Below, piece after piece: positions 14,086 to 53,589 of a DNA stretch of 64,000 nt (the first letter of the stretch is position 1; the number at the start of each line of letters is the position of its first letter). A program made the position numbers and the translations under genes. This DNA comes from Kiloniellaceae bacterium (GTDB lineage: Bacteria; Pseudomonadota; Alphaproteobacteria; Kiloniellales; J153), in NCBI GenBank assembly GCA_021776175.1, contig JAJFGJ010000030.1:62001-126000 (forward strand), in the 5' to 3' direction. The notes below the pieces were generated by a model. The model worked only from the letters and a program-made list of their open reading frames with translations. It made no database searches and had not been told where the DNA came from.

Positions 14086-15078
14086 TTACTCCACCGCTTC
14101 CGTGGTGACATCGTCCTCAGGCCAGATAGTGACCTTGTCGAACTCTTCGTTGAGTACCGTGCGAATCAGACCCGGCGTGTTAGGGCGCTCACCTTCGCGC
14201 AGGTCTTCGTAGCAAGGCACGGCGCTGTTCCGGTAGAGCACGCCAACCGGAATCTCCCCGGTCAGCGAGGCTACCTCGCGGGCCCGGTGCAGATCGCTCG
14301 GGTCATGGGTTTCCTGGTTCCTGTAAATCCGTGAAATATCTGGCTTGAGCTGGATACCGTCGGCATGAACCAGGAGGCGCATCTTCGATGGGTCCTGGAC
14401 CCAGGGATCGAAGCGATGGTCCATGAACTCCGGACAGCGCTGCAGCACCCGCACGAAGGAGAGGCCCTTGTGATGGTAGGCCTGGGAAATGATGTTGAAC
14501 AAAACGTCGGGGATCCAGTCCACCGCCTGGGCCACGAAGGAGACGTTCGGCACACCGAGCGTCACGGTCAGGGGGTTGAGCGGGTCCAATAAGGCGCCGC
14601 GCGGCGTTGTATTGCTCTTCAGGCCGCGCGGTGAGGTTGGCGAAGCCTGCATCTTGGTCAGGCCGTAAACCTCGTTATCGTGCAGCAGCACAGTCATGTC
14701 CATGTTGTAACGGATCGCGTGGATCCAGTGCGCGGCGCCGATACTGCAACAGTCGCCGTCGCCGGTTGCGACGAAGACGTGAAGGTCCGGACGGCGTAGC
14801 TTGATGCCCTCGGCGACCGGCAAGGCGCGGCCGTGCAGGCCGTGGAAACCGTAGGCGTTCATGTAGTGCGGAAAACGGCTTGAGCAGCCGATGCCGGATA
14901 CGACGACGGTCTTCTCGGGCGGCAGTTGCTCGTCGCGGCACAGGCGTTGGACCGCCGTTAGGATACCGTTATCCCCGCATCCGGTGCACCAGCGCGGCGC
15001 GATGTCGCTCTGATAATCGGTGAGCGTGTAGTTCTCATCGATGAGCCGTAACAGGCATTGGGTCAGAGGTACGGTCAT
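14086..15078 (-). CDS. korB: 2-oxoacid:ferredoxin oxidoreductase subunit beta
   Basis: 330 residues. It has the TPP-binding beta-subunit hallmarks: WCTGCGDNG near the N-terminus, SGIGCSSR, and GDGDCCSIG followed by HDNEVYGLTKMQ (the GDG...N magnesium/TPP motif). With the alpha/gamma subunit it would catalyse CoA-dependent oxidative decarboxylation of a 2-oxoacid, most likely 2-oxoglutarate or pyruvate, reducing ferredoxin. It starts 9 bp after the alpha gene stop. The substrate is not decided by the sequence. Confidence 0.9.
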   Translation of the reverse strand: MTVPLTQCLLRLIDENYTLTDYQSDIAPRWCTGCGDNGILTAVQRLCRDEQLPPEKTVVVSGIGCSSRFPHYMNAYGFHGLHGRALPVAEGIKLRRPDLHVFVATGDGDCCSIGAAHWIHAIRYNMDMTVLLHDNEVYGLTKMQASPTSPRGLKSNTTPRGALLDPLNPLTVTLGVPNVSFVAQAVDWIPDVLFNIISQAYHHKGLSFVRVLQRCPEFMDHRFDPWVQDPSKMRLLVHADGIQLKPDISRIYRNQETHDPSDLHRAREVASLTGEIPVGVLYRNSAVPCYEDLREGERPNTPGLIRTVLNEEFDKVTIWPEDDVTTEAVE

Positions 15079-15087
15079 GGTCGTTAC

Positions 15088-17052
15088 CTATCGCTGCTCA
15101 AGTTTTCGCCGGGCGGCGCGCACGATATCGCCGGGCTTGAGGGGTTGCCCCCGGGCGTCGCCCCAGCAATCGACATCGATGAGGTGGCGCGCGCGCAAGA
15201 GTAAGGCGAGGCTCGAATAGCGACGATTATCCTCGGCGATCAACTCGTCGTCGAGCGAATCGCACCAGTTGCTCTCAATCGTCATGACCTTGTCGAAGCG
15301 CTCCAGCAACTCCTTGATACCCGTGGCCATGGGCTGGAGGAACTTGAGGTTCATGGAGGAAGCGCGCAGGCCCTCCGCCCGGAGTGTATCGACGGCCTCC
15401 TCAATGGCACCGCGCGTGCTGCCCCATCCGACGAGCAAGAGGTCGCCCTCGTCGTCGCCGTACAGAGTCGGCGCCTTAAGGGTTTTCTGCAAAGCGGCCA
15501 ATTTCAAGCTTCGGTGCCGTATTCCCTCCTGATTCACATCGGGGTCATAAGCGACGTGGCTATCGCGATCATGTGCCAGGCCGGTCAGGCAGTGCATACC
15601 ATTGGGCTGCCCAGGAATGAAACGCGAAGAGAGGCCTGTCCGCGGGTCCCAGTCATAGGGCCTAGCGCCATCTGGCACCGGGCTCTGGTTGATTGGCGGT
15701 GCCAGCCAGTCCTCGTTAAAACGTGGTCGCGGGAAAGGTTGCTGGGCGGTTGCCAGGCTTGCGTCCGATAGGACCACGACCACCATGTTGAAGTTCTCGG
15801 CGATCTTGCGGGCCATGATGATGGAATAAAAGCAGTCCTCGATGGACGAAGCGGCAATCACGACTTTAGGCGCGTCTCCGTGGCCACCGAAACAGGCCGC
15901 CAGCAGGTCGCCCTGCTCTGCCTTGGTTGGCTGACCCGTGCTCGGCCCGCCACGCTGTACATCGACCACGACGAGGGGAATTTCGCCCATAACCGCGAGG
16001 CCTATGCCCTCCTGCTTCAGCGACAGGCCCGGGCCCGAGGTGATCGTGACCGCACATTTGCCCGCGTAGGACGCGCCTACAGCAAAGGTGCAGGCGGCGA
16101 TCTCGTCCTCTGCTTGATGGACCACACAACCGACTTTCTCGAAGATATCGCTCAAGTAGTGCGATGCCGAGGTCGCCGGTGTAATCGGGTACATGGAGCA
16201 GACCTCCATGCCCGAGGCGACCACGCCGAGGGCCAGAGCCGTGTTGCCGTTCATGACGACCTGCGGTTCGCGCGGCCGCTCCGCGGGGATCGCGAACTTG
16301 AGGTCGAGATTGGCACCCGCCCAGGCATGGCCGGCAGCAAGAAGCTCCAGGTTCAGATCAATAACCTTCTCATCCTTCTTGCGGAAGACGAAACGAACCT
16401 GCTCGCGTGCTAGGTCCAGATCGAAGCTATAAATGCAACACAGCATGCCGAGGGCGAACATGTTCTTGCCGCGCCTCGGATCCGGCACGTATTTCAAGCA
16501 TTCTTCTTCCATGGGGATCTCGTAAAGCCGGTATCCGGCCGAAGAGACCTGTTCGCGGACCTGGGCGTAGGAAGCAGCGATAGCCGCGTTGCCATCGTTC
16601 TGCCATTTATTCTCCAGCAGAATGATCCCGTTATGTTTAATTTCTCCCGCCCGCAGGCGATTGAGTAAAACCTGTTCGTTGAAGGCGACAACCAAGTCGG
16701 CTTCATCGCCACCGTTGGTGACGCGGTGCGACGCCAGGCGGACGCGGTTCCCGCTGGTTCCCGCGATGCTGCGCGCCGGCGGTTGGATCTCGGCCGGGAT
16801 GATCTCGACGGTCCAGATGCCGTTGCCTATGCGCGCCGCGATAGCGCCGAACGACTGGCCGCATCGCTGCGCCCCCTCGCCAGAATCGCTGACGATCTCG
16901 ACGATATGCTCCTTGAGGGTTACCACGGGCTTCGCCGCTGAATTGGCCCTGGAGGTCCGCGAGGCCGCTGTTGCCGAGTCCGAAGCAGAAGGATCCGATC
17001 GCGCACGCCGGGTCCGCGTCTTGTCCGTTTCCTGGTAGAGGTCCGTGGTCAT
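15088..17052 (-). CDS. korA: 2-oxoacid:ferredoxin oxidoreductase subunit alpha (gamma-alpha fusion)
   Basis: 654 residues. The N-terminal ~240 form the gamma domain (SDSGEGAQRCGQSFG, then DLVVAFNEQV). The rest is the alpha domain with MYPITPATS, HQAEDEIAA, TSGPGLSLKQE and GGPSTGQPTKAEQGD, all typical of the fused two-subunit class. An unusual low-complexity Thr/Arg/Ser-rich stretch fills the first ~45 residues. It lies 22 bp after the flavoprotein gene and is co-transcribed with korB. It provides substrate and CoA binding. Confidence 0.9.
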   Translation of the reverse strand: MTTDLYQETDKTRTRRARSDPSASDSATAASRTSRANSAAKPVVTLKEHIVEIVSDSGEGAQRCGQSFGAIAARIGNGIWTVEIIPAEIQPPARSIAGTSGNRVRLASHRVTNGGDEADLVVAFNEQVLLNRLRAGEIKHNGIILLENKWQNDGNAAIAASYAQVREQVSSAGYRLYEIPMEEECLKYVPDPRRGKNMFALGMLCCIYSFDLDLAREQVRFVFRKKDEKVIDLNLELLAAGHAWAGANLDLKFAIPAERPREPQVVMNGNTALALGVVASGMEVCSMYPITPATSASHYLSDIFEKVGCVVHQAEDEIAACTFAVGASYAGKCAVTITSGPGLSLKQEGIGLAVMGEIPLVVVDVQRGGPSTGQPTKAEQGDLLAACFGGHGDAPKVVIAASSIEDCFYSIIMARKIAENFNMVVVVLSDASLATAQQPFPRPRFNEDWLAPPINQSPVPDGARPYDWDPRTGLSSRFIPGQPNGMHCLTGLAHDRDSHVAYDPDVNQEGIRHRSLKLAALQKTLKAPTLYGDDEGDLLLVGWGSTRGAIEEAVDTLRAEGLRASSMNLKFLQPMATGIKELLERFDKVMTIESNWCDSLDDELIAEDNRRYSSLALLLRARHLIDVDCWGDARGQPLKPGDIVRAARRKLEQR

Positions 17053-19809: not shown

Positions 19810-20841
19810 CTAATTACCGAGAGCGCGCGCGAGGAAATTTTTCAGATCGGCAAGCGCGCGCTTGCGTGCGTCGACGTTGGAGCCGGCGTGGGCGCCCTTC
19901 GTTGCGCACCGCTTGACATAATTCTTGAATTTCGACCATTTCTCGAACCGGCCGGTGCTGGCGATCACGTATCCTTTCGCGCGGACAAAATAGGCGCAAT
20001 CCTTCCAGCTGTCGGCTTGCGGCAGATAGTTGCGGAACCGGCCCATGTAATCGAACCCGTGCGCGGCGTTTGCATAAACGATTGAGTGAGCCTCGTATCC
20101 GGACTTGGTTAGCCGTTCGGCGTAGTCGACGCAGGCCTGGGATCCGGACCAGTCATCTTCTTGGCCCAGCAGGTAAAGCATCGGCGCGCCGGTCAATGCG
20201 GTCTTGAAATCCTGCTCGCCGCACCATGGGTAAAACGCCGCGTGCGCCGCGAACCGGCGGCCTTGACGAGCCAAGCGTTTTTGCAGTCGTTTGCGTGAGG
20301 CCCAGTCGGCCACGAGACCGCCCTTCGACCAACCGATGAGGGCGATTCTGTCCGGGTCGATCCTCGGGTGCGTCGCCAGAAGCGCTAAGGCCGCATAGGC
20401 GTCGGCCAGCATCGAATACGGCGACACCGCGTCCTGATCGCCGACCGTGGTCTCGACACCGCGGGGTTTGAAGCTGTCGAGAACAAAGGCCGCGATTCCC
20501 CATTCGGCCAAGGACTCGGCGTAGCGGTATTGGTGATCGGACAGGCCGTCGCTTCCGTGCAGCAGAATTGCGGCGGGCAAGGTCCCGGAACGCCCTTTCG
20601 GCAATATGAGATCGCCGGAGATCGTCACCGGCGTGCCGACCGCCGCGCCGTCTTGGATATCGGACAAGCCGATGGTGGAGCTTACGAAACTGACCCGGCC
20701 CTGCGTGCCGTCGCGCAAGGTCGCCACGAGAGGGCCGCTTGACTGGCGGGGTTCCGCCCGCCAGACCCCGATCGCGACAACGCTCAGAACGGCGCCGAGG
20801 GCGACGACCAAGATCCGGTGCCTTGCTAAGGATTTCGCCAT
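19810..20841 (-). CDS. membrane-anchored or secreted alpha/beta hydrolase (dienelactone-hydrolase-like)
   Basis: 343 residues from the ATG that opens with a basic stretch and one hydrophobic helix (residues 9-28), a signal anchor or signal peptide. The hydrolase core shows AAILLHGSDG (oxyanion region), IGWSKGG (nucleophile Ser elbow), an acidic residue in LGQEDDW, and NAAHGFDY (catalytic His). The substrate is unknown. It lies 25 bp after the transporter-sirtuin fusion and is the last gene of the six-gene operon. The reading frame extends upstream into that gene, but without signal-peptide sense. Confidence 0.8.
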   Translation of the reverse strand: MAKSLARHRILVVALGAVLSVVAIGVWRAEPRQSSGPLVATLRDGTQGRVSFVSSTIGLSDIQDGAAVGTPVTISGDLILPKGRSGTLPAAILLHGSDGLSDHQYRYAESLAEWGIAAFVLDSFKPRGVETTVGDQDAVSPYSMLADAYAALALLATHPRIDPDRIALIGWSKGGLVADWASRKRLQKRLARQGRRFAAHAAFYPWCGEQDFKTALTGAPMLYLLGQEDDWSGSQACVDYAERLTKSGYEAHSIVYANAAHGFDYMGRFRNYLPQADSWKDCAYFVRAKGYVIASTGRFEKWSKFKNYVKRCATKGAHAGSNVDARKRALADLKNFLARALGN

Positions 20842-20866
20842 AGTGTGCCTCGAAGGCCGGGGGCCG

Positions 20867-22525
20867 TTAATCGCACCAACGGGGCCACCGCCCCAGTGTA
20901 CCGCCGTCGGGCATGAGGCGGAGCATGACCGACACGGCGTCGAGATAAGGTAAGGCCGCCTCCGGCGTGGCGGCGAGCACCATGTCGTCGGAGCCTGGGA
21001 GGTGGGACGAAACCTCATCCGTTACGAAGACAATATGGCCCCCGATGCCACGGACCGTGTCCAGGATGAAATCCGACCATTCGTCTCGTTCCTGCGCGCC
21101 GAGGACCAACAGGACGGCGCAGTCCGCGAGGTCGCGTTCTATGGCAAGTCTATCCTCGCAAGCCATGGCATCATGGAACAGGTTAGTGTCTGGGATCAGG
21201 GCGCCCGAACAGTCCGGACACCGCAGGTCGCAGCGGCGCCAGATCCGGCCCGGCGGCCAACCGTCGTTGAAACCGCAGTCCAGGCAGGCGATCCGATCGA
21301 TCCGCCCGTGCACGTCCGCGACCTCTTTGGCTCCGGCTTTTCGCAGGGTGCCGAGAACGTCCCGGGACAGAATCTTCCGCACCCATCCTCGGCCCTCGAA
21401 GCGAGCGAGGGCGTGGTGTTGCGCCTTTGCTTCCATCTCTTGCGCCGAGGCGCGCAAACGATCGCACACCTCCCAGAATGCCTTGCGTAAGCGGAGCGAC
21501 GCGCGTAGCCGGTCATGGGAAAATGCCGGAGGCTTCGCGCGCTCACCGCGCCGACCGCCGCTCAGCGACTCCAAGGCCAAGGCGTATTTGGCCGAGTCTC
21601 CGCCCAGCACCGCCATGATCGGACGGCCCGCCGCACGGGCACGGTGCATCGTCAGGGCCGCCCGCCAAAAATTGGGCTGGAGCAGCAGCGCGTGCCTTAT
21701 GCGCCGCATAGCGGCGATGGATAACCAGAGCCCAAGCGCCAGAGGGGCCAGAAGGGGCGGCGCGATATCGGCGGCGCCGCTCGTTGTCCAAAATAGCCAG
21801 ATTATGCCCGCCGATAGGGCGGCGATCATGCCGCCGAGGGTTCCGGCCAAGGATTCCCGCAGAAAAACCGCCTGCATGGCGAAAAACGCCAGCGGCACTG
21901 TCAGGGCCCAGAGCCCACTGTAGGCCAAGCCGTTGCCTTCTTGGCTCACCGACATATACGCAATCGATCCAAGGCACAGCGACCAGGCAGCGGCCAAGCC
22001 GCACTTCATGGCCATGGCGGCGACGATGCACAGAGCGCCCAGCAACGCGCCCGGTATTCCCAGCGGGGATGACGGCGTTTCTATCCAGAACCACGTGCCC
22101 GGCGCCGCGAGCGCCCAGGACACAACCATGGCCGTCACCATGGCCGGCATGGAAAGCGCCGGCAAGGAAACGAGGGCAAGGCCGCGCCGCAGCACGAACT
22201 CGAGCGCGACGCAGAGGCTCATAACGGTCACGAACAAGGACACTTCGAACGCACCATCGGCGAAGAAGCCGCCCCACAGAATGCCAATGATCGCCGTGTT
22301 GAACCCAGCTAGACCGCGTTCCCATTCCTCGCGGGGATAGACCCAGCCGAAAACCCCCATGGCGGTCCCAAAAGCGGCGCCCGCCAGCGCCCCGGCGGCA
22401 CCCCAGGGAGATATGAGCGCCAGGCCCGCCAGAATCAGCGCGCCGGCCATCGACCGGTCGCAAAACGCGAGCTGCGCCACCCCCCGGAGCAACGTCTGGA
22501 CAAAGAGTTTAGAAGTCGCAGTCAT
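20867..22525 (-). CDS. urea transporter domain fused to a sirtuin-like domain
   Basis: 552 residues. Residues 1-290 are hydrophobic and match the bacterial UT urea-channel family: LLRGVAQLAFCDRSMAGAL, LISPWGAAGALAGAAFG and GLAGFNTAIIGI. Residues ~300-552 look like a diverged Sir2 domain: DVHGRIDRIACLDCG (catalytic-His position H406, first zinc pair C414/C417), CPDC (C436/C439), then GALIPDTNLFHDAM and VLLVLGAQ. The usual N-terminal GAGxS NAD motif is degenerate or missing. The ATG overlaps the decarboxylase stop by 17 bp. A frame continuing upstream of it is only an antisense-like overlap of the decarboxylase gene. I know of no standard role for such a fusion. Confidence 0.75.
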   Translation of the reverse strand: MTATSKLFVQTLLRGVAQLAFCDRSMAGALILAGLALISPWGAAGALAGAAFGTAMGVFGWVYPREEWERGLAGFNTAIIGILWGGFFADGAFEVSLFVTVMSLCVALEFVLRRGLALVSLPALSMPAMVTAMVVSWALAAPGTWFWIETPSSPLGIPGALLGALCIVAAMAMKCGLAAAWSLCLGSIAYMSVSQEGNGLAYSGLWALTVPLAFFAMQAVFLRESLAGTLGGMIAALSAGIIWLFWTTSGAADIAPPLLAPLALGLWLSIAAMRRIRHALLLQPNFWRAALTMHRARAAGRPIMAVLGGDSAKYALALESLSGGRRGERAKPPAFSHDRLRASLRLRKAFWEVCDRLRASAQEMEAKAQHHALARFEGRGWVRKILSRDVLGTLRKAGAKEVADVHGRIDRIACLDCGFNDGWPPGRIWRRCDLRCPDCSGALIPDTNLFHDAMACEDRLAIERDLADCAVLLVLGAQERDEWSDFILDTVRGIGGHIVFVTDEVSSHLPGSDDMVLAATPEAALPYLDAVSVMLRLMPDGGTLGRWPRWCD

Positions 22526-23888
22526 CGCCACGCAGCCTCTCGGGAAGGCGGTCGAGGGCGAAGACGTCGCGCCAAGTCTCGCGCCGCCGGACCAGTTCCG
22601 GCCCCTCCGGCCCAAGGAGAACCGTCGCCGGCCGGGTTTGAATGAACTGCATGGATTGGCTGTGGCAATAGGCTCCGACGTGAGAAATGGACAGGATGTC
22701 GCCCATCTCGACCGGCGGAAGCAACGCCTGTTCGCGAAGACGGTCGCTCTGCATGCACAACGGGCCGTAGATATCCACGGCCTGGTGGCGGCCGTGCTGA
22801 ATCCCGCTCGGGCCGGCGGCCCGGCCCATGGCGTGATTGTAGAAACATGCCGTGGGCACCAGATTGACACCGGCGTCGACAATGACCGCCGGCGTCTGGC
22901 CGTCAACGGCCTTCTCCGCCACCACGGTACACAGAAGCTGTGTGGAGGCATCGACGATGGCGCGTCCAGGCTCGAGGACCAGTATCGGCCGCCCACCGAA
23001 CAGCTCCCTGGCGTTTTGCAGGCGGCTGCAGATTTCCTCGGCGTAGGAAAACCAGAAATTGCCTTCGCGGCGGCTGCCGCCCTGGAAGTCGAACTCCGGG
23101 CGCAGCGTGTTGCTGGATGGGAAGCCGCCGCCCACATCGATCATGGTCGGCTCGAGCCCCAGGTCCCGGGCCCGCTTGGCCAGATGAATCAGCCGCTCCA
23201 CCGATTTGGCGTAGAGCTCCTCTATCAGGACGAAGGTGCCGCAGTGATTATGCAGCAGTTCGAGGCGGAGGCGCGGATTGAGCGCGATTCGTTCCAGCGC
23301 CTTATGGCTGTCGCCGTTGTCGTCGTTGAAACCGAATTTGGTCCAACCGATGGCGCCGAAGCGAAAGCTGATCCGGATTCCTATGCGAACCGGCGCCGAA
23401 AGCCCGGCCGCGATTGCCTCTACCTGCGCCAGTTCGTCGAAGTTGTCTATATTGACGACGGCGCCTTCGCCAAGCGCCCGCTCCAACTCCTCCTGGGTCT
23501 TGTGGGGTCCGTTGAAGATCATCTGAGAGGCCGGGAACCCAAGGGCGCGGGCCAGCTCGTATTCCATGCCGGAGACAACCTCGGCCCAGGCGCCTTCGTC
23601 CTTCAGGACCGAACACACGGCAGGCAGGTAATTGGTCTTGATCGAATAAGCGACACGGGTCTCCAGGTGAGTGTCCGTGAAGGCCTCCAGAAAGGTGCGG
23701 TAATCATCTCTCAACCGCCGTTCGGAGATGACGAATAACGGCGAGCCGTATTGCTCGACTAAGGCCGAGGCGTCTACTTCCTGATCGAGATCGGAGAATG
23801 CCGAGACCTCGCGCGTCGCATGTTTGGTGAAAGCGATGAAGGGCAGCCGTGTGATCTCCGGCGGCTCGTAGGCGGTCGGCTCAGTCAT
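22509..23888 (-). CDS. PLP-dependent decarboxylase, group IV (diaminopimelate/ornithine decarboxylase-like)
   Basis: 459 residues with the alanine-racemase-fold barrel. The PLP lysine is in AYSIKTNYLP (K84), the phosphate loop at MIDVGGGFPSS, and LVLEPGRAIV and the C-terminal SHVGAYCHSQS region (active-site Cys area) are present. It would decarboxylate a basic or dicarboxylic amino acid, or a carrier- or ligase-made derivative; which one is unclear. The ATG overlaps the stop of the ATP-grasp gene (8 bp), indicating coupled translation with a ligase-like enzyme rather than a stand-alone lysA. Confidence 0.85.
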   Translation of the reverse strand: MTEPTAYEPPEITRLPFIAFTKHATREVSAFSDLDQEVDASALVEQYGSPLFVISERRLRDDYRTFLEAFTDTHLETRVAYSIKTNYLPAVCSVLKDEGAWAEVVSGMEYELARALGFPASQMIFNGPHKTQEELERALGEGAVVNIDNFDELAQVEAIAAGLSAPVRIGIRISFRFGAIGWTKFGFNDDNGDSHKALERIALNPRLRLELLHNHCGTFVLIEELYAKSVERLIHLAKRARDLGLEPTMIDVGGGFPSSNTLRPEFDFQGGSRREGNFWFSYAEEICSRLQNARELFGGRPILVLEPGRAIVDASTQLLCTVVAEKAVDGQTPAVIVDAGVNLVPTACFYNHAMGRAAGPSGIQHGRHQAVDIYGPLCMQSDRLREQALLPPVEMGDILSISHVGAYCHSQSMQFIQTRPATVLLGPEGPELVRRRETWRDVFALDRLPERLRGDDCDF

Positions 23889-26040
23889 GGGACAGGACTC
23901 CCTTGGTGGAAAGCGCCGCGACGTGGCTGGCACGAAGCGGGAATTCTTCGCTGCTGCGGAGGAAAACCAACTCCTTATCGTCGGCGGGAGGATTTACATG
24001 CTTGCCCATCGCGAGCCGGGCCGCCAGATACGGCTGGTTCGAACCAAGGGCCGCCGAGTAGTAGATCCACGCGGTGAAGCGCGGGTTGACCTCTATCAGG
24101 TAGAAGCGGTCGGTCACCTCGTCGCACATGAATTCACCTTCAGCCGGCCCGACCCACTCGATGGAGCGAAGGAACTCCGCGAAGGCGGCCTCGAGGCGTG
24201 GTTGTTCCACGCGTACCGCGCTCCAGGTACTGCCGCGCCCGCAGATCGCCAGCTTCTTGATGGTCATCGTCGAGACGACACGGTGATCGGTGTCGCAAAC
24301 CACGCTGACGGCGTAGACGGGCCCGACGATGTGCGACTGCACGATGACCTCTTTCGGGCCGCTTGCGCTTAGCTGCGACCAAGCGCATTTGGCATCGGCT
24401 TCCGACGCCACGGGAATGCAGTGCGAGACCGGTCCCTTAACCACTGCCGGGAGACCAAGGGAGCGCACCGCCTTGAGCACCTGCGCTTCGCTTTTGGCGA
24501 TCCGGCTGTCCGGGATGGCGAAACCACCCCAATCGCCAGGAAGCGTGCCGCGGAAGAGATTCGGTTTGCTTCGCAGTTCGAGGCTTTCCCCAGACGGCAG
24601 TAGAGTATGCACACCCATCTTTCGAAGCTTGCCGGCGGCCTCGATGAACCGCGGCAGTTCCCCGTCGAGACTGGGGATCAGGACATCGAAGGGAGACACC
24701 TCGTGAATCTCCACCAGCCGCTCCAGCAGGGCGTCAACCGACTCGCCGTGTGGGAGATTGAAGCACCGGTCGAACAGCTCACCCTGGTAGGCGCCCGAGT
24801 CGAACGTGCCATAGGCGAGTCCGTACACCTGCGAGATCCCATCCGCCGTACGCAACGCCCGGGCGACACCAAGCCCCGGATTGATAACGTCGAAGCTGCT
24901 GATTCCGGTCAGCGCCACCCTCAACCCGTGCGGCGGCGAACCGTTGCGCGCCGGCCGCGCGGCGCCGTTCGCCGGCGGCCGTCCATCGACACTCCTGTGC
25001 CGCCGGTAGTCGAGCAGATCTTCGACCGGAACTGCCGTCTCGGCGATGCCGCGAACATACATCGTGCCCGCCCGGGCCAGGACCCGCATCCCTGTCAGGT
25101 CCTGGTCCTCCAGGATATGGCCGAGCAACAAAGCGGCCAGGTTCGTGCCGGCCCAATGGCACAGCATGCTCCATGTGGGAAGATGGCCGCGCACGTCGCA
25201 CAGCCAGAGGTCTTTAGAACCGGCCGCGCGGACCGCCACGAGTTCGACCGGCCCCTGCCAGTCCAGGGCCTCGAGAACATCGCGCGCGAACCTGGCGACA
25301 TCCGGATCGTCAACCACCGCGCCGGAAACCGTGCGCCCTTCGCCATTCACCGCTAGGCTGCGCCGAATCACCATGGCGGCACAATCGCCTTTGCTGTCGG
25401 CGACCATCGCGATGTTGAATTTTTCCCCGGCCACCTGCCGCTGCAGAACGATACGCGCGCTACGGCTAGAAATGGTTTGGGCCACGGCCAGTTCTGCCTG
25501 AGCCGAGTTGAACACGAGCCGCGATCCCGAAGGCGCGCACGTCACATAAAGCGGATAGCCGAGTTGATCGGCCTGGCGTGCGACGTCGGCCGGGTCGGTG
25601 ACGGTCACAGTGGGCGGCCCGGGATATCGATGGTTGCCGAGGAACCTTGGCAGGTTTTCCGGCCGCACGATCTCCAGACGCTCCAAACTGGGCAACAGCG
25701 TGCGGATGTCCCGCTTTTGCAGGCGTTCCTTAAGCCTGGCGGCTACGCGCGCATCGGCGCCGCTGCCGGGGACGAGGGCCGCGAACGGGCTTTCCTCGTG
25801 AGCGCACACGACGGCTTTAAAGAATGCATCCTCGCCAGCGGCCGCTGGCGGCAGCCGGTGAATTCGGTCGGCCAAACCGGGCAGCCAGGCGCCGGGCAGG
25901 ACAGGATCGCCGCCCAGCGCGGTAAGTGTGAGTTCTCCGTCCCATCCTTCCCGTAGGGCGCGGGCAACGGAAACCCCGGGGCCGGGCGATTCCAGGCCGG
26001 AAAACCCGGTCAGCGCGACACCGATATCTTTCGAAACCAT
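23881..26040 (-). CDS. tandem ATP-grasp protein (carbamoyl-phosphate-synthase-large-chain-like)
   Basis: About 719 residues made of two related halves, each opening with a Rossmann-like pre-ATP-grasp unit (VALTGFSG and VALTGISSFD, both followed by GxGVARAL). In the second half the metal/ATP motif YLIEVNPRF is intact. The equivalent place in the first half reads WLCDVRGHL, so that half is probably not catalytic. It resembles CarB or an ATP-grasp amino-acid ligase rather than either exactly. The start is the ATG at 26040 behind GGGAAAGG. It overlaps the decarboxylase gene downstream, so a ligase-decarboxylase pair is likely. Confidence 0.75.
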   Translation of the reverse strand: MVSKDIGVALTGFSGLESPGPGVSVARALREGWDGELTLTALGGDPVLPGAWLPGLADRIHRLPPAAAGEDAFFKAVVCAHEESPFAALVPGSGADARVAARLKERLQKRDIRTLLPSLERLEIVRPENLPRFLGNHRYPGPPTVTVTDPADVARQADQLGYPLYVTCAPSGSRLVFNSAQAELAVAQTISSRSARIVLQRQVAGEKFNIAMVADSKGDCAAMVIRRSLAVNGEGRTVSGAVVDDPDVARFARDVLEALDWQGPVELVAVRAAGSKDLWLCDVRGHLPTWSMLCHWAGTNLAALLLGHILEDQDLTGMRVLARAGTMYVRGIAETAVPVEDLLDYRRHRSVDGRPPANGAARPARNGSPPHGLRVALTGISSFDVINPGLGVARALRTADGISQVYGLAYGTFDSGAYQGELFDRCFNLPHGESVDALLERLVEIHEVSPFDVLIPSLDGELPRFIEAAGKLRKMGVHTLLPSGESLELRSKPNLFRGTLPGDWGGFAIPDSRIAKSEAQVLKAVRSLGLPAVVKGPVSHCIPVASEADAKCAWSQLSASGPKEVIVQSHIVGPVYAVSVVCDTDHRVVSTMTIKKLAICGRGSTWSAVRVEQPRLEAAFAEFLRSIEWVGPAEGEFMCDEVTDRFYLIEVNPRFTAWIYYSAALGSNQPYLAARLAMGKHVNPPADDKELVFLRSSEEFPLRASHVAALSTKGVLSHD

Positions 26041-26109
26041 GGCCGGAGCCTTTCCCAAGTATCAGGTCCGAGTTTTCCCGTATGGCGCGAATTGAGATTC
26101 GCGGCCTCG

Positions 26110-26712
26110 TCAGCGTTCGAGCGAGATCAGATCGCAGCGTTCGGTGCCATTGGTATCTTCATATGTCCAACGGACGGAAACACCCGTTTCAGGCTGTAGA
26201 TAGGTGGTCATTCTCGACCAATAGACGCCGTGAAAAACCTTCCGCTCCTCGGAAACAGGAGTGAGGCGCACGGCTCCAAGGACGCGATGCTTGACGTCTT
26301 GAGGTTGCCCCACGCTGACCTCGTAGTCCCAGACCCACTTTTCCTCGCCCGATTGGGTCGGAACCGCGCCTTTGAATTTGGACCCGGGAACGAGCTTGTA
26401 GAAGCCCTCGAAGTCCTCCATGTCGAACCACTGGGCGCGATTCCCGGAAAGTTCGTACCAAAGACTCGTGCCGGTAAGCCGGGCGTGCTTTCTCGAAAAA
26501 TACGGGACACCGTCCACTTGTCCTTCGTAGCGCACGACGTCCTTCTCGGTCTCCACGACGGTCAGCTCATATCGCTTGCTGTAGGGGCCCTCGCAATCCC
26601 ACACCATCCTGGTTCCAAGCTTGGGCGCATTTAGTTCGGCATGGGCCGGACCGGCCGCCAATCCGGAACTCATCGTAGCGGCAAGAACTATGAGCGCTAT
26701 CGGCATACGCAT
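26110..26712 (-). CDS. secreted protein of unknown function
   Basis: 200 residues. A signal peptide is clear (hydrophobic residues 3-18, cleavage after AGPAHA). The mature part is rich in aromatic residues and has two cysteines (in VWDCEGP and ERCDLISL), possibly a disulfide in the periplasm. No family was recognised. The start has GAGAGGA 9 nt upstream. It sits between the PqqD-like gene and the ATP-grasp gene on the same strand, so it is probably part of that operon. Confidence 0.75.
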   Translation of the reverse strand: MRMPIALIVLAATMSSGLAAGPAHAELNAPKLGTRMVWDCEGPYSKRYELTVVETEKDVVRYEGQVDGVPYFSRKHARLTGTSLWYELSGNRAQWFDMEDFEGFYKLVPGSKFKGAVPTQSGEEKWVWDYEVSVGQPQDVKHRVLGAVRLTPVSEERKVFHGVYWSRMTTYLQPETGVSVRWTYEDTNGTERCDLISLER

Positions 26713-26796
26713 TGTGACATTTCCTCTCAGGGCAGTTGTCCCGTAGCACGTATTTATCATGGGTCTCAAACTGGTACGGAATCTAAATAGATTGAA

Positions 26797-27159
26797 TCAA
26801 GCAGGTAGCTCCGCCAGGCCCATCGAAGTCCGGCCCACCGAATTCTGGCTTCCTCGCTCCACGGCCGGAAGCGGCCGGCCGGCCTCGCGGAATTCTAGAA
26901 AGCCCTGGGCGCTGAGCGATTCCAGGAACCGCCCCATGTCACGACGGGCGTCCGCGACGCTTACATTAAACTCCGCCGACAAGGCCGCTGCGAGGAGCTC
27001 CTCCGTGGCGCCATCTTCAAGACGGAGCACAAGGAATGCCGCCGCGGTATTGCAAGAGCACATTGTGCCGCTATGACTATCGATCAGAACAACGTCTTCC
27101 GTCTGCGCGTCCCGTTCGATCAAGATGTGCGAACGAAGAGCAAATCGACTACCGTCCAT
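26797..27159 (-). CDS. PqqD-like (RRE fold) protein
   Basis: 120 residues. The pattern VVLIDSHSGTMCSCNTAAAFLVLRL, then ATEELLAAAL, then ADARRDMGRFLESLSAQGFL fits the PqqD family: a strand pair, then a winged-helix. These proteins bind leader peptides of ribosomally made peptides and present them to modifying enzymes. A GGAG site lies 8 nt before the ATG. It is the first gene of the six-gene operon. No PqqA, PqqE or other pqq gene is in the window, so it need not concern PQQ. The partner peptide is unknown. Confidence 0.72.
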   Translation of the reverse strand: MDGSRFALRSHILIERDAQTEDVVLIDSHSGTMCSCNTAAAFLVLRLEDGATEELLAAALSAEFNVSVADARRDMGRFLESLSAQGFLEFREAGRPLPAVERGSQNSVGRTSMGLAELPA

Positions 27160-27189
27160 GTTTTTTCTCCGGCTTGATAAGGGCGCATC

Positions 27190-27533
27190 CGATTTGGCAG
27201 GGGTTTTGCTTAAAGTTAGTTTGGGTGGCTAAATGATACATGGACGGAACGATGCAAGCCGTATGCCAGAAAAATAGGACTGCTAAGCAGTTGTTACTCT
27301 TAAACTATACGGAAACTCTGACATTTCCCTTAATGGCTCGCAGGGCGCCGGGTGGGGGAAATCACCCACTCCCCGGGGCATTTCCCACTTCTGGAGAAGC
27401 CCGGCGGCCAGCTGCCGAGAGGACGGTTGGCCAGTGACCGGATATCGGCGTGCACGGCCAAGTTTGCGTGCCTACCAGAACGGGCACGGTTCCGCCGCTG
27501 CCCCGTTAACCGCCATCGGAACATAGATCGAGG
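27190..27533. repeat. duplicated promoter-leader region, copy 1
   Basis: About 340 bp align with 53590-53925 in the same orientation. Shared blocks include GGCTAAATGATACATGG, GTATGCCAGAAAAAT, a hairpin element around GGGGCATTTCCCA (27355-27388) and GGGCACGGTTCCGCCGC. Both copies lie between a minus-strand gene (PqqD-like here, LuxR-type regulator there) and a plus-strand histidine kinase (intact here, a remnant there). A 65-codon frame starts at 27240 in this copy. Confidence 0.8.
27195..27211 (+). promoter_or_regulatory. sigma54 (-24/-12) promoter for the NtrB/NtrC-like two-component genes
   Basis: TGGCAGGGGTTTTGCTT matches TGGCAC-N5-TTGCW, with GG and GC exactly 12 bp apart; transcription would start near 27221. 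It points to the kinase and sigma54-activator genes, so autoregulation is plausible. The homologous site near 53600-53616 has lost the -24 GG. Confidence 0.7.
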
Positions 27534-27542
27534 CAATAGGTT

Positions 27543-28937
27543 ATGGAAAAAGTTATCGCAGGCCCCATTGGTTCGACCAAGCCGGGCCGGATTCCATTCC
27601 GCTCCTTCAATTTGGTGCGCTGGTTCCTCGTCCTCGGCTTCACCTCAATCGCCATTACCAGTGTGGCGTCCGCCTTCGTTCTTTCCAACTTCCTCAAGCG
27701 TAACATGCTTGAGCGGGATGCTAACGTGACCATGGAGTTCGTCAATAGCATCGTACATGCGGCGCACGCCGGCCCCCACCTCACAGCTAGCGACCCAGAC
27801 GACGGCAACGAGGTTCTGGAGAAGCTCTTCGCGCAGATCGCCAGCGTTCCCGAGGTTATCCGCGCCAACCTCTATGGCAAGAACCGGACGATCCTTTGGT
27901 CCAGCGACCCCGCCTTTGTCGGCGCGGTGTTCCAGACGAACAGCGAATTGGACCGTGCCTTCAACGGCGGCATAGAGATCGAGGAGGGTCTGGTCGGCGA
28001 GAACAAAAAGGCGGAGCACGCCTTCCTGAAAGGCGCCGGAACCCGCTTTGTCGAAAACTATCTTCCGATCTGGAGCGGCGATAGGCGCGAGGTTATTGGG
28101 GTCGCGGAAGTCTACAAGACACCCGATGCGCTCTATCGTGCCATCAATCATGGCACCAAGCTTATCTGGATCAACGCGATCATGGGCGGCATCGTCCTCT
28201 ATATCGCTTTGATCTGGATCATCCACCGCGCCAACTTGGTCATCGACGAGCAGCAAAGACAGATCGTCGATGCGCAGGCCTTGGCCGCCATCGGCGAGAT
28301 GGCCTCGGCCGTCGCCCACGGCCTGCGCAACCCATTGGCTTCGATCAGAACTTCGGCGGAAGTATCCTTGGGGGACGCGCCGCCACCGCCGGTCGAGGAG
28401 GCGTTGAGGGATATCGTCGCGCAGTCGGACAGGCTTGAGTTGTGGGTGCGCGAGCTCCTTACCTCTTCGCGGCCCGAGGCCTTCGAGTTTGAGTTGGTCC
28501 AGATCAACGACCTATTGTCACGAAGCGCCGAGGCCTACGTGGCCCAGATGAAAAGGCAATCGGTGAAACTTGAACTGCGGCTCGATTCCAAGGCCGGCCC
28601 CATCGAAGCCAACGCCGTGGCGCTCGGCCAGGTCGTCAACAGCTTGATCGCGAACGCTTTGGAAGCCATGCCCAATGGTGGAGAACTGGCCATAACTTCG
28701 TCGTGCATGGATGCCGGGAAAACCGTGTCGATAGCGGTCATCGACACGGGCCAAGGCATAGCCGAGAGCGAAATCGGCCAGGTCTTTGAACCGTTTGTCA
28801 CTACAAAAGGCACCGGGCTAGGGGTCGGCCTGCCCCTGGCCAAGCGTATCATCGAGCGCCACCGGGGCCGCCTGGGTTTGTCCGCGGCGCCCGGGGGCGG
28901 CACCGTAGCCTCAATCGAACTACCGGCGGTGAGTTGA
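27543..28937 (+). CDS. membrane sensor histidine kinase (NtrB/AtoS-like, HisKA)
   Basis: 464 residues. Two membrane helices (about 25-48 and 207-228) bracket a periplasmic sensor of ~155 residues. The phospho-acceptor box AVAHGLRNPLASIR contains H259, with Gly where Glu is usual (HELRNP). The N box (NSLIANALEAMP), the G1 box DTGQGI and the final GTGLGVGLPLAKRI-type G2 region are intact. It ends 3 bp before its response regulator. The sensor domain resembles that of the kinase at 54174-55625, suggesting a common or related signal. Confidence 0.9.
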   Translation: MEKVIAGPIGSTKPGRIPFRSFNLVRWFLVLGFTSIAITSVASAFVLSNFLKRNMLERDANVTMEFVNSIVHAAHAGPHLTASDPDDGNEVLEKLFAQIASVPEVIRANLYGKNRTILWSSDPAFVGAVFQTNSELDRAFNGGIEIEEGLVGENKKAEHAFLKGAGTRFVENYLPIWSGDRREVIGVAEVYKTPDALYRAINHGTKLIWINAIMGGIVLYIALIWIIHRANLVIDEQQRQIVDAQALAAIGEMASAVAHGLRNPLASIRTSAEVSLGDAPPPPVEEALRDIVAQSDRLELWVRELLTSSRPEAFEFELVQINDLLSRSAEAYVAQMKRQSVKLELRLDSKAGPIEANAVALGQVVNSLIANALEAMPNGGELAITSSCMDAGKTVSIAVIDTGQGIAESEIGQVFEPFVTTKGTGLGVGLPLAKRIIERHRGRLGLSAAPGGGTVASIELPAVS

Positions 28938-28940: not shown

Positions 28941-30350
28941 ATGTCATACGGAATACTGGTCATCGAAGACGAGGAGACCCTCGCCAAGAACATCAAGCGT
29001 TACCTCGAGAGGAGCGACTACGAGGTTCGCCTGGCGGCTAGCGGCGAGGAAGGCCTGAAAGCGTTCGCGAACTTTCGCCCAGATCTGATCCTGCTCGATT
29101 ATCAACTCCCCGGTCGTGATGGGCTTAAGATCTTGCAGGAGATCCGCGCGCTCGACACCCAAGTCAAGGTGATTATGGTAACGGCGCACGGCACCATAGA
29201 AGTCGCTGTGGAGGCGATGAAGGCCGGCGCCAACGATTATCTCAACAAGCCACTGGTGCTGAGCGAGCTTAAGTTTCTGATTAACAAAACCCTCGGACAA
29301 GAGCGCCTGGAAGGCGCGCTCAGCTATTTCCAAACCAGAGAAGCTTCGACAGGCGGACTCGGCGCCCTGTTGGGCCGCTCCCTCGCCCTGGAGGCCCTGA
29401 GACAGAAAATCCGTCAAATCGTGGAGGCCGAATCCACGCTCACCGATGCATCGCCTCCCGCGGTCCTCATCACCGGCGAGACTGGGACCGGCAAGGAACT
29501 CGTGGCCAAGGCGCTCCACTTCGAGGGCCCCAGGCGGGATCACCCCTTTGTGGAACTCAATTGCGCCGCTTTACCCGAACAACTGATCGAGGCCGAGTTA
29601 TTCGGCCATGAGCGCGGGGCCTTCACGGACGCGAAGGACCGCAAGATGGGATTAGCGGAGGCGGCTCACGGCGGGACCTTGTTTCTCGATGAGATCGGCG
29701 AGATGAGCCAGCCGATCCAAGCCAAGCTGCTGAAGGTAATCGAGGATAAGACGATTCGCCGGCTCGGCAGTGTGCGGGACCGAGCGGTTAACGTGCGCAT
29801 CGTCGCGGCCACAAATCAGCCTCTGGAGGATCTAGTCAACCGCAAGGCGTTCCGCTCCGATCTCTACTTCCGGCTTCGCACACTCACCTTGAGCGCGCCG
29901 CCTTTGCGCGAACGGCAAGAAGACATCCTGTACCTCGCGCAGCACTTTCTCGAACTTCATAGCAAGCGCTATCGTCGCGATTCTCTGCACCTGAGCACGC
30001 GCGCCAAGCAGGCCTTGCGGGATCACCTCTGGCCGGGAAACGTGCGAGAGTTGCGTAATGTCCTGGAACAGGCTGTGCTCTTGTCCACGGACGGTGTCAT
30101 CGATACCGAGCTACTCGCCTTGGCGCCAGGCCTCCAAGTCGCCAACATGCCCGCCGATACCGCGCGCTCGGAAAGTTTCTCGACGACGCTGCCTCCTGAC
30201 GGGATAAACCTGGAAACACTGGAACAGGATCTGGTATCTCAGGCCCTCGAACGCACGTCGTGGAACGTGACCCAGGCCGCGCGGCTGCTCGGCTTGTCCC
30301 GCGACACTTTGCGCTACCGCATCGAAAAATTCGACCTGAAACAAAATTGA
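28941..30350 (+). CDS. sigma54-dependent response regulator (NtrC family)
   Basis: 469 residues: receiver domain (phospho-site D53 in LILLDYQLPG), AAA+ domain with Walker A GETGTGKE (179-186) and Walker B TLFLDEIGEM, and a Fis-type helix-turn-helix at the end (NVTQAARLLGLSRDTLRYRI). The sigma54-contact loop reads GAFTDA (226-231) instead of the canonical GAFTGA. It is coupled to the kinase and probably activates the sigma54 promoter upstream of the pair. Target genes beyond that are unknown. Confidence 0.92.
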   Translation: MSYGILVIEDEETLAKNIKRYLERSDYEVRLAASGEEGLKAFANFRPDLILLDYQLPGRDGLKILQEIRALDTQVKVIMVTAHGTIEVAVEAMKAGANDYLNKPLVLSELKFLINKTLGQERLEGALSYFQTREASTGGLGALLGRSLALEALRQKIRQIVEAESTLTDASPPAVLITGETGTGKELVAKALHFEGPRRDHPFVELNCAALPEQLIEAELFGHERGAFTDAKDRKMGLAEAAHGGTLFLDEIGEMSQPIQAKLLKVIEDKTIRRLGSVRDRAVNVRIVAATNQPLEDLVNRKAFRSDLYFRLRTLTLSAPPLRERQEDILYLAQHFLELHSKRYRRDSLHLSTRAKQALRDHLWPGNVRELRNVLEQAVLLSTDGVIDTELLALAPGLQVANMPADTARSESFSTTLPPDGINLETLEQDLVSQALERTSWNVTQAARLLGLSRDTLRYRIEKFDLKQN

Positions 30351-31859: not shown

Positions 31860-34235
31860 ATGAAGTTCAATGACGCAAAAACAGCTATTCAATCCGGCCC
31901 CCCGACACCAAGCCGGATATTGCGGCCTGGAATCCGCACTCTACCGCTCGGTGTGGAACGCTATGTGGTCGCGGGCAATGGCTCAATATTTCTGCCCATC
32001 TATGCCGGCGACCAACTGACCATCACCGACATGGAGGGTGGTCAGCCATGCGATATCATCGCGTCGGATGGAAACGGCAAGTTGATTACCGGTGATATTT
32101 TCAATGAGGCCGCGGATATCACGAGTGAGGGGATCGCCAAGATACTGGGTTCCGGAACTCCAAGTTCGCAACGCACGCGGAAATTGCTTGAGCGTTTAAA
32201 AATCAAACCTGAGTCAGCGCGAGCATTGCGTCTGTTCGGATCGTCCTCACCTGCTTTCAGCAAGGTCGAGCTGACGGCACATGCCGGCGGAAATTTGCTT
32301 ATCGCCGTTCCCGGCGGGATTATGGATTTCAATGCCCAGGACACGGCCACTCCGGTCGAAGTTTTGATCGAACGGAACTCACCTGCCTCCGGCAAGGCCC
32401 TGAATAAAGTGCTCCCCCTGGCCGACCCGGTTTCGGACATCCACATCGACGCACGGACTGCCCAATGCTATTCGGTAAAAGCGGGCGAATATATTCAGAT
32501 CGTCGATGTTGCGGGCCGTCAGTGCACGGATTTTCAAGCTTTCAGTCAGCGCAAGCTCGATAGCGGCAAACACCTGCCGCTTGATGCAACGATAACCCGC
32601 TCGTTGCTGGGACTGACGACACCCACCCCCGGCCTGCCCGCCAAGGCTTTCGATATGGAGATGGACGCCCTGGTCGAGGTTATTCAGGATACCTGCGGCC
32701 GTCACGATGCTTTTTTGACCGCTTGCAACGCACGATACTACGAGGACATGGGCTATCCCGGACATCTGAATTGCACCGACAATTTCAATCAAGCCCTCAA
32801 TGGTTACGACATCCCGCCGCGAAAAGGATGGGAAGCCCTCAATTATTTCTACAACACGGCAATCGATGCCCAGAACCAGATATATTTCGATGAACCCTGG
32901 TCACGGCCGGGCGATTATGTGCTGTTGCGGGCGGTCACCGATCTTGTCTGTGTCTCTTCCGCATGCCCCTGTGACATCGATGCCGCCAACGGCTGGGATC
33001 CAACCGATATCCACGTCTTTACTTATTCCGACAAGGAGCTCTTTTCCAAGGCCATTGCCTTTCGCAAAACACCGGATGCAGATGTTGAAATGACTAAAGA
33101 AACAGCTTTCCACAAACCCCTGTCGGCCATGACCCGCAACTTCACCGAATATAACGGTTACTGGCTGCCAAACCGGTTCAACAACGATGGGCCTATAGCA
33201 GAGTACTTTGCGTGCCGGGAGCGTGCGGCCGTCATGGACCTGTCGCCATTACGTAAATTTGAAGTGACCGGGCCGGATGCGGAAGCTCTGCTGCAATATT
33301 GCATGACCCGGGATATCCGCAAACTATCCTCGGGCCAGGTCGTCTACACGCCCCTTTGTTACGAACATGGCGGCATGATGGATGACGGGACGGTGTACCG
33401 CTTGGCGCAGGACAATTTCCGCTGGATCGGCGGGTCTGACATATCGGGTATCTGGCTGCGCGAACAGGCCGAAAAGCTTGGACTGGAAGTGTGGGTCCGC
33501 TCATCCACGGATCAAATGCACAATATCGCGGTGCAAGGACCAAATTCACGCTATATCCTCAAGGAAATCATCTGGACCCCGCCCGCGCAACCTGAACTGA
33601 GCGAACTTGAATGGTTCCGTTTTACAGTCGGGCGTATCAGAGAGTTTTCCGGGCCTCCCGTGGTCGTTTCCCGCACCGGGTATTCAGGCGAACTGGGGTA
33701 TGAAATATTCTGCCACCCTAAAGATGCGGAAGCAGTTTTTGCCGCCGTTTGGGAAGCGGGCCACGGGCACGGTCTTAAACCGCTTGGCCTTGAAGCACTC
33801 GACATGGTCCGTATCGAAGCCGGTTTGATATTCGCTGGCTACGAGTTCTGCGATCAAACCGACCCGTTCGAGGCGGGTATCGGGTTTACCGTTCCCTTGA
33901 AATCTAAGAACGACGATTTCATTGGCCGTGAAGCCTTGATCGAACGCAAGGCCCACCCGCGCCGTAAATTGGTTGGCTTGGCGATAGAGTCACAGGAAGC
34001 CGTGGGCAATGGCGATACAATTCATATCGGCCGGGCACGGATCGGCGAGGTGACCAGTTCCATGCGCTCGCCCATTCTCAATGCCAATATCGCGCTTGCC
34101 CGGGTCGACACCACTCACGCGGCCCTCGATACGGAAATTGAAATCGGCAAGCTGGACGGTCAACAAAAACGCATTCCGGCCCGCATCGTGCGATTCCCCC
34201 ATTACGATCCAGAGAAGAAACGCCCGCGCAGTTAG
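31860..34235 (+). CDS. tdm: trimethylamine N-oxide demethylase (DUF1989 + GcvT-like domains)
   Basis: 791 residues, the two-domain build of Tdm. The N-terminal half is a DUF1989 domain; Cys279 and the pair in SSACPCDIDAANG (C369, C371) are likely zinc ligands. The second half (about 420-791) is aminomethyltransferase-like (MDLSPLRKFEVTGPDA, VQGPNSR, SRTGYSGELGYE, GLEALDMVRIEAG). The enzyme splits TMAO to dimethylamine and formaldehyde, and the second domain passes the one-carbon unit to tetrahydrofolate. Neighbouring tmm and TMAO-type transporter genes support the call strongly. It is convergent with tmoW, with a short GC-rich hairpin between them. Confidence 0.88.
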   Translation: MKFNDAKTAIQSGPPTPSRILRPGIRTLPLGVERYVVAGNGSIFLPIYAGDQLTITDMEGGQPCDIIASDGNGKLITGDIFNEAADITSEGIAKILGSGTPSSQRTRKLLERLKIKPESARALRLFGSSSPAFSKVELTAHAGGNLLIAVPGGIMDFNAQDTATPVEVLIERNSPASGKALNKVLPLADPVSDIHIDARTAQCYSVKAGEYIQIVDVAGRQCTDFQAFSQRKLDSGKHLPLDATITRSLLGLTTPTPGLPAKAFDMEMDALVEVIQDTCGRHDAFLTACNARYYEDMGYPGHLNCTDNFNQALNGYDIPPRKGWEALNYFYNTAIDAQNQIYFDEPWSRPGDYVLLRAVTDLVCVSSACPCDIDAANGWDPTDIHVFTYSDKELFSKAIAFRKTPDADVEMTKETAFHKPLSAMTRNFTEYNGYWLPNRFNNDGPIAEYFACRERAAVMDLSPLRKFEVTGPDAEALLQYCMTRDIRKLSSGQVVYTPLCYEHGGMMDDGTVYRLAQDNFRWIGGSDISGIWLREQAEKLGLEVWVRSSTDQMHNIAVQGPNSRYILKEIIWTPPAQPELSELEWFRFTVGRIREFSGPPVVVSRTGYSGELGYEIFCHPKDAEAVFAAVWEAGHGHGLKPLGLEALDMVRIEAGLIFAGYEFCDQTDPFEAGIGFTVPLKSKNDDFIGREALIERKAHPRRKLVGLAIESQEAVGNGDTIHIGRARIGEVTSSMRSPILNANIALARVDTTHAALDTEIEIGKLDGQQKRIPARIVRFPHYDPEKKRPRS

Positions 34236-39206: not shown

Positions 39207-40547
39207 ATGACCAAAAGAGTAGCTGTTATCGGCGCCGGCCCTTCGGGACTAGCACAGTTGCGGGCATTTCAATCGGCGGCGCAGAACGGCGCGGCAATCC
39301 CTGAAATCGTATGCTTCGAAACGCAGGATGATTGGGGAGGCTTGTGGAATTATACTTGGCGCACAGGCGTGGATGAATATGGCGAGCCTGTGCATTGCTC
39401 CATGTATCGCTACTTATGGTCAAACGGCCCCAAGGAAGGGTTGGAATTTGCCGACTATTCCTTTGAAGAACACTTCGGACGGCAAATTGCGTCCTATCCG
39501 CCTCGCGCCGTCTTGTTCGACTACATCAAGGGCCGGGTCGAGAAAGCCAATGTTCGCGATTGGATCCGCTTTCGCACGCCGGTCCGTCACGTATCCTACG
39601 CCCCGGATACAGGTATGTTCACGGTCACTGCTCATAACCTTGCGGACGATCGTGAATATAGTGAGGAATTTGACCATGTCGTGGTGGCGTCAGGCCATTT
39701 CTCGACGCCAAATGCGCCTCAATTCGATGGCTTTCCCACTTTCAACGGCCGCATACTCCACGCCCACGACTTCCGGGACGCTCTAGAGTTCAAGGATCAA
39801 GACATCCTAATTATAGGCACCAGCTATTCGGCGGAAGATATTGGCTCGCAATGCTGGAAATATGGCTGCAAGTCGGTGACCGTCAGCCATCGCACCGCGC
39901 CGATGGGCTACAAATGGCCGGACAACTGGCAGGAAGTGCCGCTCCTGACAAAGGTCGAGGGCAATACCGCAACCTTCAAGGACGGCACAACAAAGGATGT
40001 GGACTCAATTATCCTGTGCACAGGCTATCAGCATCACTTTCCGTTCCTCCCCGATGAGCTGCGCCTTAAAACGGCCAATCGGCTAGCTACGGCCGATCTC
40101 TACAAGGGAGTGGTTTGGGTAAATAATCCAAAACTGATGTACCTCGGCATGCAGGACCAGTGGTTCACCTTCAACATGTTTGACGGCCAGGCATGGTATG
40201 TTCGCGATATCATCATGGGCCGTATAGATGTGCCGTCCAAAGACGTCATGGCCAAAGACGTCGAGGACCGGATCGCCGCGGAGGATGCCATCGCGGACGA
40301 CTACGGGGCGATCAAGTATCAAGGGGATTACGTCAAGGAGCTGATTGAGGACACCGACTATCCCAGTTTCGATTTGGATGGCGCCTGCGAGGCTTTCTAT
40401 CAGTGGAAAAAGCACAAAAAACAAGACATCATGACCTTCCGCAATAACAGTTACAAATCAGTCATCACGGGAACGATGGCACCGATACATCACACGCCGT
40501 GGAAGGACGCGCTGGACGATTCCCTCGAGTCCTATCTTCAGAACTGA
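39207..40547 (+). CDS. tmm: trimethylamine monooxygenase
   Basis: 446 residues, the length of bacterial Tmm. FAD motif GAGPSG (9-14), [29 protein letters not shown], the FMO fingerprint [11 protein letters not shown] (179-189) and NADPH motif GTSYSAED (204-211) are all present and closely match known Tmm proteins. It oxidises trimethylamine to TMAO with NADPH and oxygen in the cytoplasm, feeding Tdm. TAGGAGTAAGG directly precedes the ATG. The 185 bp upstream include two inverted TGGTT elements 21 bp apart. Confidence 0.92.
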
Positions 40548-48783: not shown

Positions 48784-48830
48784 TTCCTGCCTCTGTCCTT
48801 CTTGATCCGTGAAAGAATTCTCTCCTGGAT

Positions 48831-50605: not shown

Positions 50606-50674
50606 GCGTTTCCGATCTCCTTGCAATGCACGCGGATTCCGATGGCCGCGTATCAGTCCTCTGGCAGCTGCCCC

Positions 50675-53564: not shown

Positions 53565-53589
53565 GTTGCTACTCTTGGGCCGCAAGGTC

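Follow-up and report, generated by a model that had tools for sequence, protein, structure and literature searches.

A conserved Kiloniellaceae operon that may pair an ATP-grasp ligase with a decarboxylase of conjugated amino acids and a fused membrane domain

Introduction

What might a PqqD-like protein, an ATP-grasp enzyme, a pyridoxal phosphate (PLP)-dependent decarboxylase and a relative of the urea transporters (the UT family) have to do with one another? The question is raised by an operon of six genes in a 64,000-nucleotide (nt) stretch from a Kiloniellaceae bacterium (assembly GCA_021776175.1, contig JAJFGJ010000030.1, positions 62,001 to 126,000)—hereafter ‘the window’, by whose numbering all coordinates are given. 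An earlier note, made from the DNA alone, had read it as producing a small amide or peptide that is then exported or recycled. Here, we describe a gene arrangement that is conserved far beyond chance, together with a reading of it as a biosynthesis-and-transport operon, in which a ligase would conjugate an amino acid, the decarboxylase would act upon the conjugate, and membrane proteins would release or exchange the product; we place the probability of this reading at roughly 0.45, a little short of even odds. We found no description of the operon in the open-access literature searched, which does not in itself prove absence.

Results

The list of open reading frames (ORFs) and Pfam place all six genes on the minus strand of the window, running from position 27159 down to 19810. 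Working downstream from the first gene, with starts refined against the locus of a relative (L067, 76–93% identical; L-numbers denote loci of relatives, G-numbers the genomes sampled and G000 the source genome), these encode: a small PqqD-like protein of 120 amino acids (aa; PF05402; 26797–27159); a beta-rich, secreted protein with a signal-like N-terminus (26110–26712); a tandem ATP-grasp protein, identified with both Pfam and NCBIfam (23881–26040); a PLP decarboxylase of group IV (the alanine-racemase fold), whose Cys-Met pocket is like that of FigC (22509–23888); a fusion of a UT-family membrane domain to a SIR2 domain (20867–22525); and an alpha/beta hydrolase, dienelactone-hydrolase-like, with an N-terminal hydrophobic segment (19810–20841). 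Pfam upholds the families assigned in the earlier note, and the refined starts uphold its run of three overlapping genes: ATP-grasp and decarboxylase genes share 8 nt, decarboxylase and UT genes 17 nt; the other gaps are of 84, 69 and 25 nt. The secreted protein has no family in Pfam or NCBIfam searches, its homologues are confined to L067, L068 and L069, and its structure model (predicted local distance difference test, pLDDT, 57.5) is too poor for use. Purifying selection acts on each of the six genes, with ratios of nonsynonymous to synonymous substitution (dN/dS) from 0.10 for the decarboxylase, the most strongly constrained, to 0.35 for UT-SIR2, the least.

To what extent is the arrangement kept elsewhere? 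Searches with the ATP-grasp protein through the window's own order, class and phylum brought up relatives, whose fetched loci were tallied by tblastn. In 26 of 26 relatives with a contig that runs on past the ATP-grasp gene, its neighbour is the decarboxylase gene (27 of 27 once the window is counted); in L069 and L107, where no decarboxylase gene is seen, the contig reaches its edge. After the decarboxylase comes the UT gene in 19 of the 21 relatives whose contig has space for it (20 of 22 with the window), the exceptions being L100 and L101; in L078, a small acetyltransferase-like gene intervenes before UT. With ATP-grasp and decarboxylase genes paired in all 27 loci open to the test, the gene arrangement is far beyond chance—strong synteny in three classes, rather than the scatter that would have told against the pathway suggested in the earlier note.

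Counted without correction for relatedness, carriers amount to 5 of the 385 alphaproteobacterial genomes sampled and 5 of the 61 from the order (the source genome standing in both counts), 20 of 78 in the class of G441 and 15 of 48 in the class of G451. We take the G451 class as Magnetococcia because a magnetochrome domain is present in 8 of 8 tested genomes; the G441 class, judged by how many genomes it holds and by their size, is probably Zetaproteobacteria. Assignment of these non-alpha carriers to the Gammaproteobacteria was ruled out, the classes holding only 78 and 48 genomes, one of them with magnetochrome domains. Across a phylum sample of 398 genomes, 35 match the ATP-grasp protein (source genome excluded) and 35 carry, at full length, a form in which an M23 peptidase domain takes the place of SIR2 in the UT fusion (UT-M23); 30 have both, leaving 5 alone on each side. 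Two of the five counted for UT-M23 alone, G587 and G605, have the decarboxylase, or ATP-grasp plus decarboxylase, at a contig edge. Most Alphaproteobacteria combine the tandem ATP-grasp with UT-SIR2 (exception: G091, of the other form); the Magnetococcia and probable Zetaproteobacteria have a single-domain ATP-grasp and UT-M23. The tandem ATP-grasp and sirtuin highlighted by the earlier note are present, but specific to a lineage and partly decayed here, the wider form being the single-domain one with UT-M23. A scan of genome contigs returned one relative only. Two broader associations were considered and rejected: a link to sulfur oxidation, SoxB not being enriched in carriers, and a defence system, no PADLOC-DB model matching the five window proteins and one relative searched.

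Several residues of the decarboxylase bear on its substrate. All 19 operon homologues scored keep the PLP lysine, stacking histidine, glycine-rich loop and catalytic cysteine of an alanine-racemase-fold PLP decarboxylase. In diaminopimelate decarboxylase (DAPDC), an acidic residue beside that cysteine binds the distal amine and an arginine of the specificity helix binds diaminopimelate; in the same 19 of 19 homologues the former (Glu) is Met and the latter Thr, as in FigC. With Thr and Met in its pocket, and 221.6 bits against a family cut-off of 297.9, the window enzyme falls outside LysA; it likewise falls outside the N-citrylornithine decarboxylases FigC/FslC (188.6 bits against 500), keeping the Met but neither His357 nor Arg387. 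The best solved match is nevertheless FigC/FslC (7kh2; 170.6 and 193.3 bits, versus about 125 and 140 for DAPDC). FigC acts on a conjugated amino acid, a substrate which the Cys-Met and Thr changes accompany, and conjugated or carrier-bound amino acids are also the substrates of SbnH, AcsE, MccE and BtrK (PMC7857480). Because such pocket changes go with a conjugated substrate, we suggest that the operon decarboxylase acts on the product of the ligase; the basic or diamino acids named in the earlier note fit it poorly.

In the ATP-grasp protein itself, the C-terminal half retains the conserved lysine and E-x-N metal motif of an ATP-grasp ligase. On alignment, the metal (Mg)-binding motif of the N-terminal half is lost in the window, L067 and G020—CDVRGHL in the window protein, versus LIEVNPRF in its C-terminal half—but retained in G064, G120 and G181, and intact in L070–L072; the N-terminal half also evolves about three times faster (dN/dS 0.254 versus 0.087). 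A plasmid of Streptomyces zaomyceticus encodes ATP-grasp and decarboxylase as a single protein, its domains in operon order, with Cys-Met retained and Glu at the Thr position; beyond this fusion, plasmid scans gave distant ATP-grasp matches, and the full operon was not found in them.

The PqqD-like protein scores 44.7 bits against a PF05402 cut-off of 23.4, inside the family in which the earlier note had put it, and PqqD or a TetR-PqqD fusion (L083, L086, L076, L085 and others) lies 5' of the ATP-grasp gene in most relatives. It has no match, at E 1e-3, to the NCBIfam equivalog for PqqD of the pyrroloquinoline quinone (PQQ) pathway, and no PqqA, PqqC, PqqE or radical SAM gene stands among or adjacent to the six operon genes, in keeping with the earlier note; the PqqE that scores above cut-off in this genome is on contig C22. 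The source genome has a second PqqD gene (G000:C30:260402-260593; L074), it too away from PqqE.

Might the protein instead serve as the recognition element (RRE) of a pathway like that of the ribosomally synthesised and post-translationally modified peptides (RiPPs)? In such a RiPP-like or carrier-peptide pathway, the ATP-grasp enzyme would add a residue to a peptide, the decarboxylase would act whilst it remained peptide-bound, and M23 or the hydrolase would release the product. PF05402 membership speaks for this, as do the overlap of PqqD and ATP-grasp genes in most relatives, the M23 domain within the operon and the decarboxylation of a carrier-bound residue by BtrK. Directly 5' of the PqqD gene, between it and a sigma-54 promoter, there is also a 30-codon ORF (27160–27250), whose first ~16 codons are common with a 28-codon ORF in L067; it may have arisen by chance, or may be a leader or otherwise genuine. 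Its second half, however, diverges through a frame-shift between these two close relatives, and no conserved peptide-precursor gene is established in the window or in the relatives' loci; in six other loci a precursor gene has no room within the operon, because the intergenic gaps there run from −83 to +34 nt. The TetR-PqqD fusions, moreover, suggest a different use, and winged-helix folds are known to give rise to false RRE calls (PMC12710340). On balance, we consider a RiPP-like pathway unlikely; of the earlier note's proposals, the making and export or recycling of a small amide is still the best broad reading, while a leader-peptide role for PqqD is not established.

Turning to the membrane parts, the window UT domain matches PF03253 (68.5 bits, cut-off 25) over model positions 2–130 of 292 only, its second half being divergent. 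Of the motifs of a SIR2 deacylase (GAGxS, TQNxD, a catalytic His and two CxxC), alignment shows the window protein to retain the His-Gly and CxxC pairs only, with GGDSA and LSRDV as altered motifs; L070 and L072 retain nearly all of them. In G020, UT, SIR2 and hydrolase form one 896-aa ORF; a hydrophobic stretch separates the SIR2 and hydrolase parts, which may thus be placed across the membrane from each other. Next after UT-M23, in the non-alpha classes, there often follow an outer-membrane barrel and a TPR protein, the barrel being modelled with 14 strands (pLDDT 83.6) and resembling OmpG and CymA.

Upstream, a sigma-54 (−24/−12) promoter, an exact pattern match with a matching site in L067, lies on the minus strand 94 nt before the PqqD start (27253–27268), followed further upstream on the same strand by a palindromic element that is a probable activator site (27357–27385). 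Divergent from the operon, on the plus strand, Pfam identifies a histidine kinase (27543–28937) and an NtrC-type sigma-54 response regulator (28941–30350), with neighbours in L067 that are 86% and 87% identical, respectively; the regulator is the probable activator of the operon and would bind the palindrome. Exact sigma-54 matches in the 64 kb number two, against 0.13 expected. The second (53654–53669), 26 kb from the operon and just upstream of a LuxR-type response regulator gene (52914–53648, minus strand), belongs to a second copy of the operon upstream region (53649–54180, minus strand), the two sharing 69% identity across 292 columns (E 2e-28) as well as the palindrome (here at 53759–53787). 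A histidine kinase gene lies at 54174–55625 (minus strand); kinase and LuxR-type regulator are both Pfam assignments, the regulator being 60% identical to one downstream of the operon in G020 and the kinase 44% identical to one directly downstream of it there. Because the upstream region is duplicated and homologues of this pair flank the operon in G020, the operon and the second two-component pair (52914–55625) probably belong to a single sigma-54 regulon. Among the loci fetched from beyond the genus, none showed this sigma-54 site.

Elsewhere in the window there is a putative methylated-amine catabolism set (31860–34235, 39207–40547 and 47410–52153), with Pfam domains for three genes, which we take to comprise a DUF1989/GcvT trimethylamine N-oxide demethylase-like gene, a monooxygenase of the flavin-containing type, and a glutamine-synthetase-like gene beside glutamate-synthase-like ones (N-methylglutamate-pathway-like). 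At 14086–17052, a two-gene 2-oxoacid:ferredoxin oxidoreductase is followed by glutamate synthase small subunit-like and ferredoxin-NADP reductase-like genes.

Discussion

How might these parts work together? We propose that the ATP-grasp enzyme would use ATP to conjugate an amino acid by an amide bond (or by linkage to a carrier), with the PqqD-like protein as its putative adaptor, and that the decarboxylase would then take the alpha-carboxylate off the conjugated amino acid, rather than off a free diamino acid, to leave an amine-ended product. The UT membrane domain may pass this product, or a small by-product, across the inner membrane. Its passage over the outer membrane would fall to the OmpG/CymA-like barrel and TPR protein in the Magnetococcia and probable Zetaproteobacteria; in the Kiloniellaceae and G020 the hydrolase would act close to the channel, on what is probably its periplasmic side. 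The divergent kinase/NtrC pair would turn the window operon on through sigma-54. The links between the parts are supported by fusions (TetR-PqqD, ATP-grasp-decarboxylase and UT-SIR2-hydrolase).

Several observations weigh against this proposal. No acceptor or carrier has been identified for the ligase, and the residues with which FigC contacts the citryl group, His357 and Arg387, are absent from the operon decarboxylases. Channel function of the window UT-SIR2 is doubtful, because the Pfam match covers only the first half of the domain and the protein is the least constrained of the six. The membrane module may also have a separate role, because G472 (L098) and G498 (L099) keep UT-M23, TPR protein and barrel with no ATP-grasp protein detected in the genome and no decarboxylase at the locus.

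The sequence is, finally, compatible with the reverse order of reactions, in which an amine would first be made from a free amino acid and then attached by the ATP-grasp enzyme, as in ordinary polyamine amide synthesis. This would need the same gene set, and free basic amino acids are common substrates of group IV decarboxylases. Against it stands the replacement, in 19 of 19 homologues, of the residues for a free distal amine and for the diaminopimelate carboxylate; that the ligase comes first, in gene order and in the Streptomyces fusion, points weakly the same way. We regard decarboxylation first as quite unlikely.

It is very unlikely, in our view, that the PqqD-like domain is a regulatory winged-helix standing outside the chemistry of what would otherwise be a small-molecule pathway: whilst the TetR-PqqD fusions would suit such a role, the PqqD genes of Alphaproteobacteria and of most Magnetococcia loci are free of any DNA-binding partner and tightly coupled to the ATP-grasp gene. 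A salvage operon for urea or polyamines around a true urea channel, to which the UT match and the presence of arginine and ornithine decarboxylases in the decarboxylase family might point, is highly improbable, given pocket residues unfit for arginine or ornithine and no urease, agmatinase or arginase in the loci read.

For conjugation followed by decarboxylation, a close parallel is FigA/FigC (FslA/FslC) of rhizoferrin synthesis, where the conjugate formed by a ligase from an amino acid is the substrate of a decarboxylase with the alanine-racemase fold (PMC7857480). FigC, with its shared Cys-Met and Thr changes, is the nearest solved relative, but the rhizoferrin ligase is a nonribosomal peptide synthetase-independent siderophore (NIS) synthetase rather than an ATP-grasp enzyme, PqqD, UT, M23 and SIR2 parts are absent there, and the operon lacks the citryl contacts. 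BtrJ/BtrK/BtrI of butirosin synthesis likewise pair an ATP-grasp ligase (BtrJ; PMC4431377) with a group IV decarboxylase whose substrate is carrier-bound (BtrK; PMC7857480), but no acyl carrier protein is seen in the operon, no transporter fusion occurs in the butirosin set, and BtrK is a much weaker match to the operon decarboxylase than is FigC. With PQQ biosynthesis the operon has the PqqD fold in common, without the PqqA, PqqC and PqqE that belong there; with urea transporters (PF03253) it has the UT domain, here fused to SIR2 or M23. The exosortase-A-associated set of TIGR03099 also groups alpha/beta hydrolases with a ligase and a group IV decarboxylase in its neighbourhood; the operon decarboxylase differs from it (100 bits, versus a cut-off of 478), as does the type of ligase.

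A bolder proposal is of a new kind of biosynthetic pathway: its PqqD-fold adaptor, ATP-grasp ligase and conjugate-specific decarboxylase would supply a channel whose M23 or SIR2 domain is interchangeable, so that a metabolite would be both made and released by one operon; this we hold tentatively, as rather unlikely. The operon recurs in three classes of Pseudomonadota, and the single-domain homologues of the other classes allow direct in vitro tests of its chemistry. If our proposal holds, decarboxylation would here come after conjugation by an ATP-grasp ligase, a PqqD-fold protein would have a use that belongs neither to radical SAM nor to known RiPP chemistry, and homologous operons would have the same membrane domain fused to two unrelated enzyme domains.

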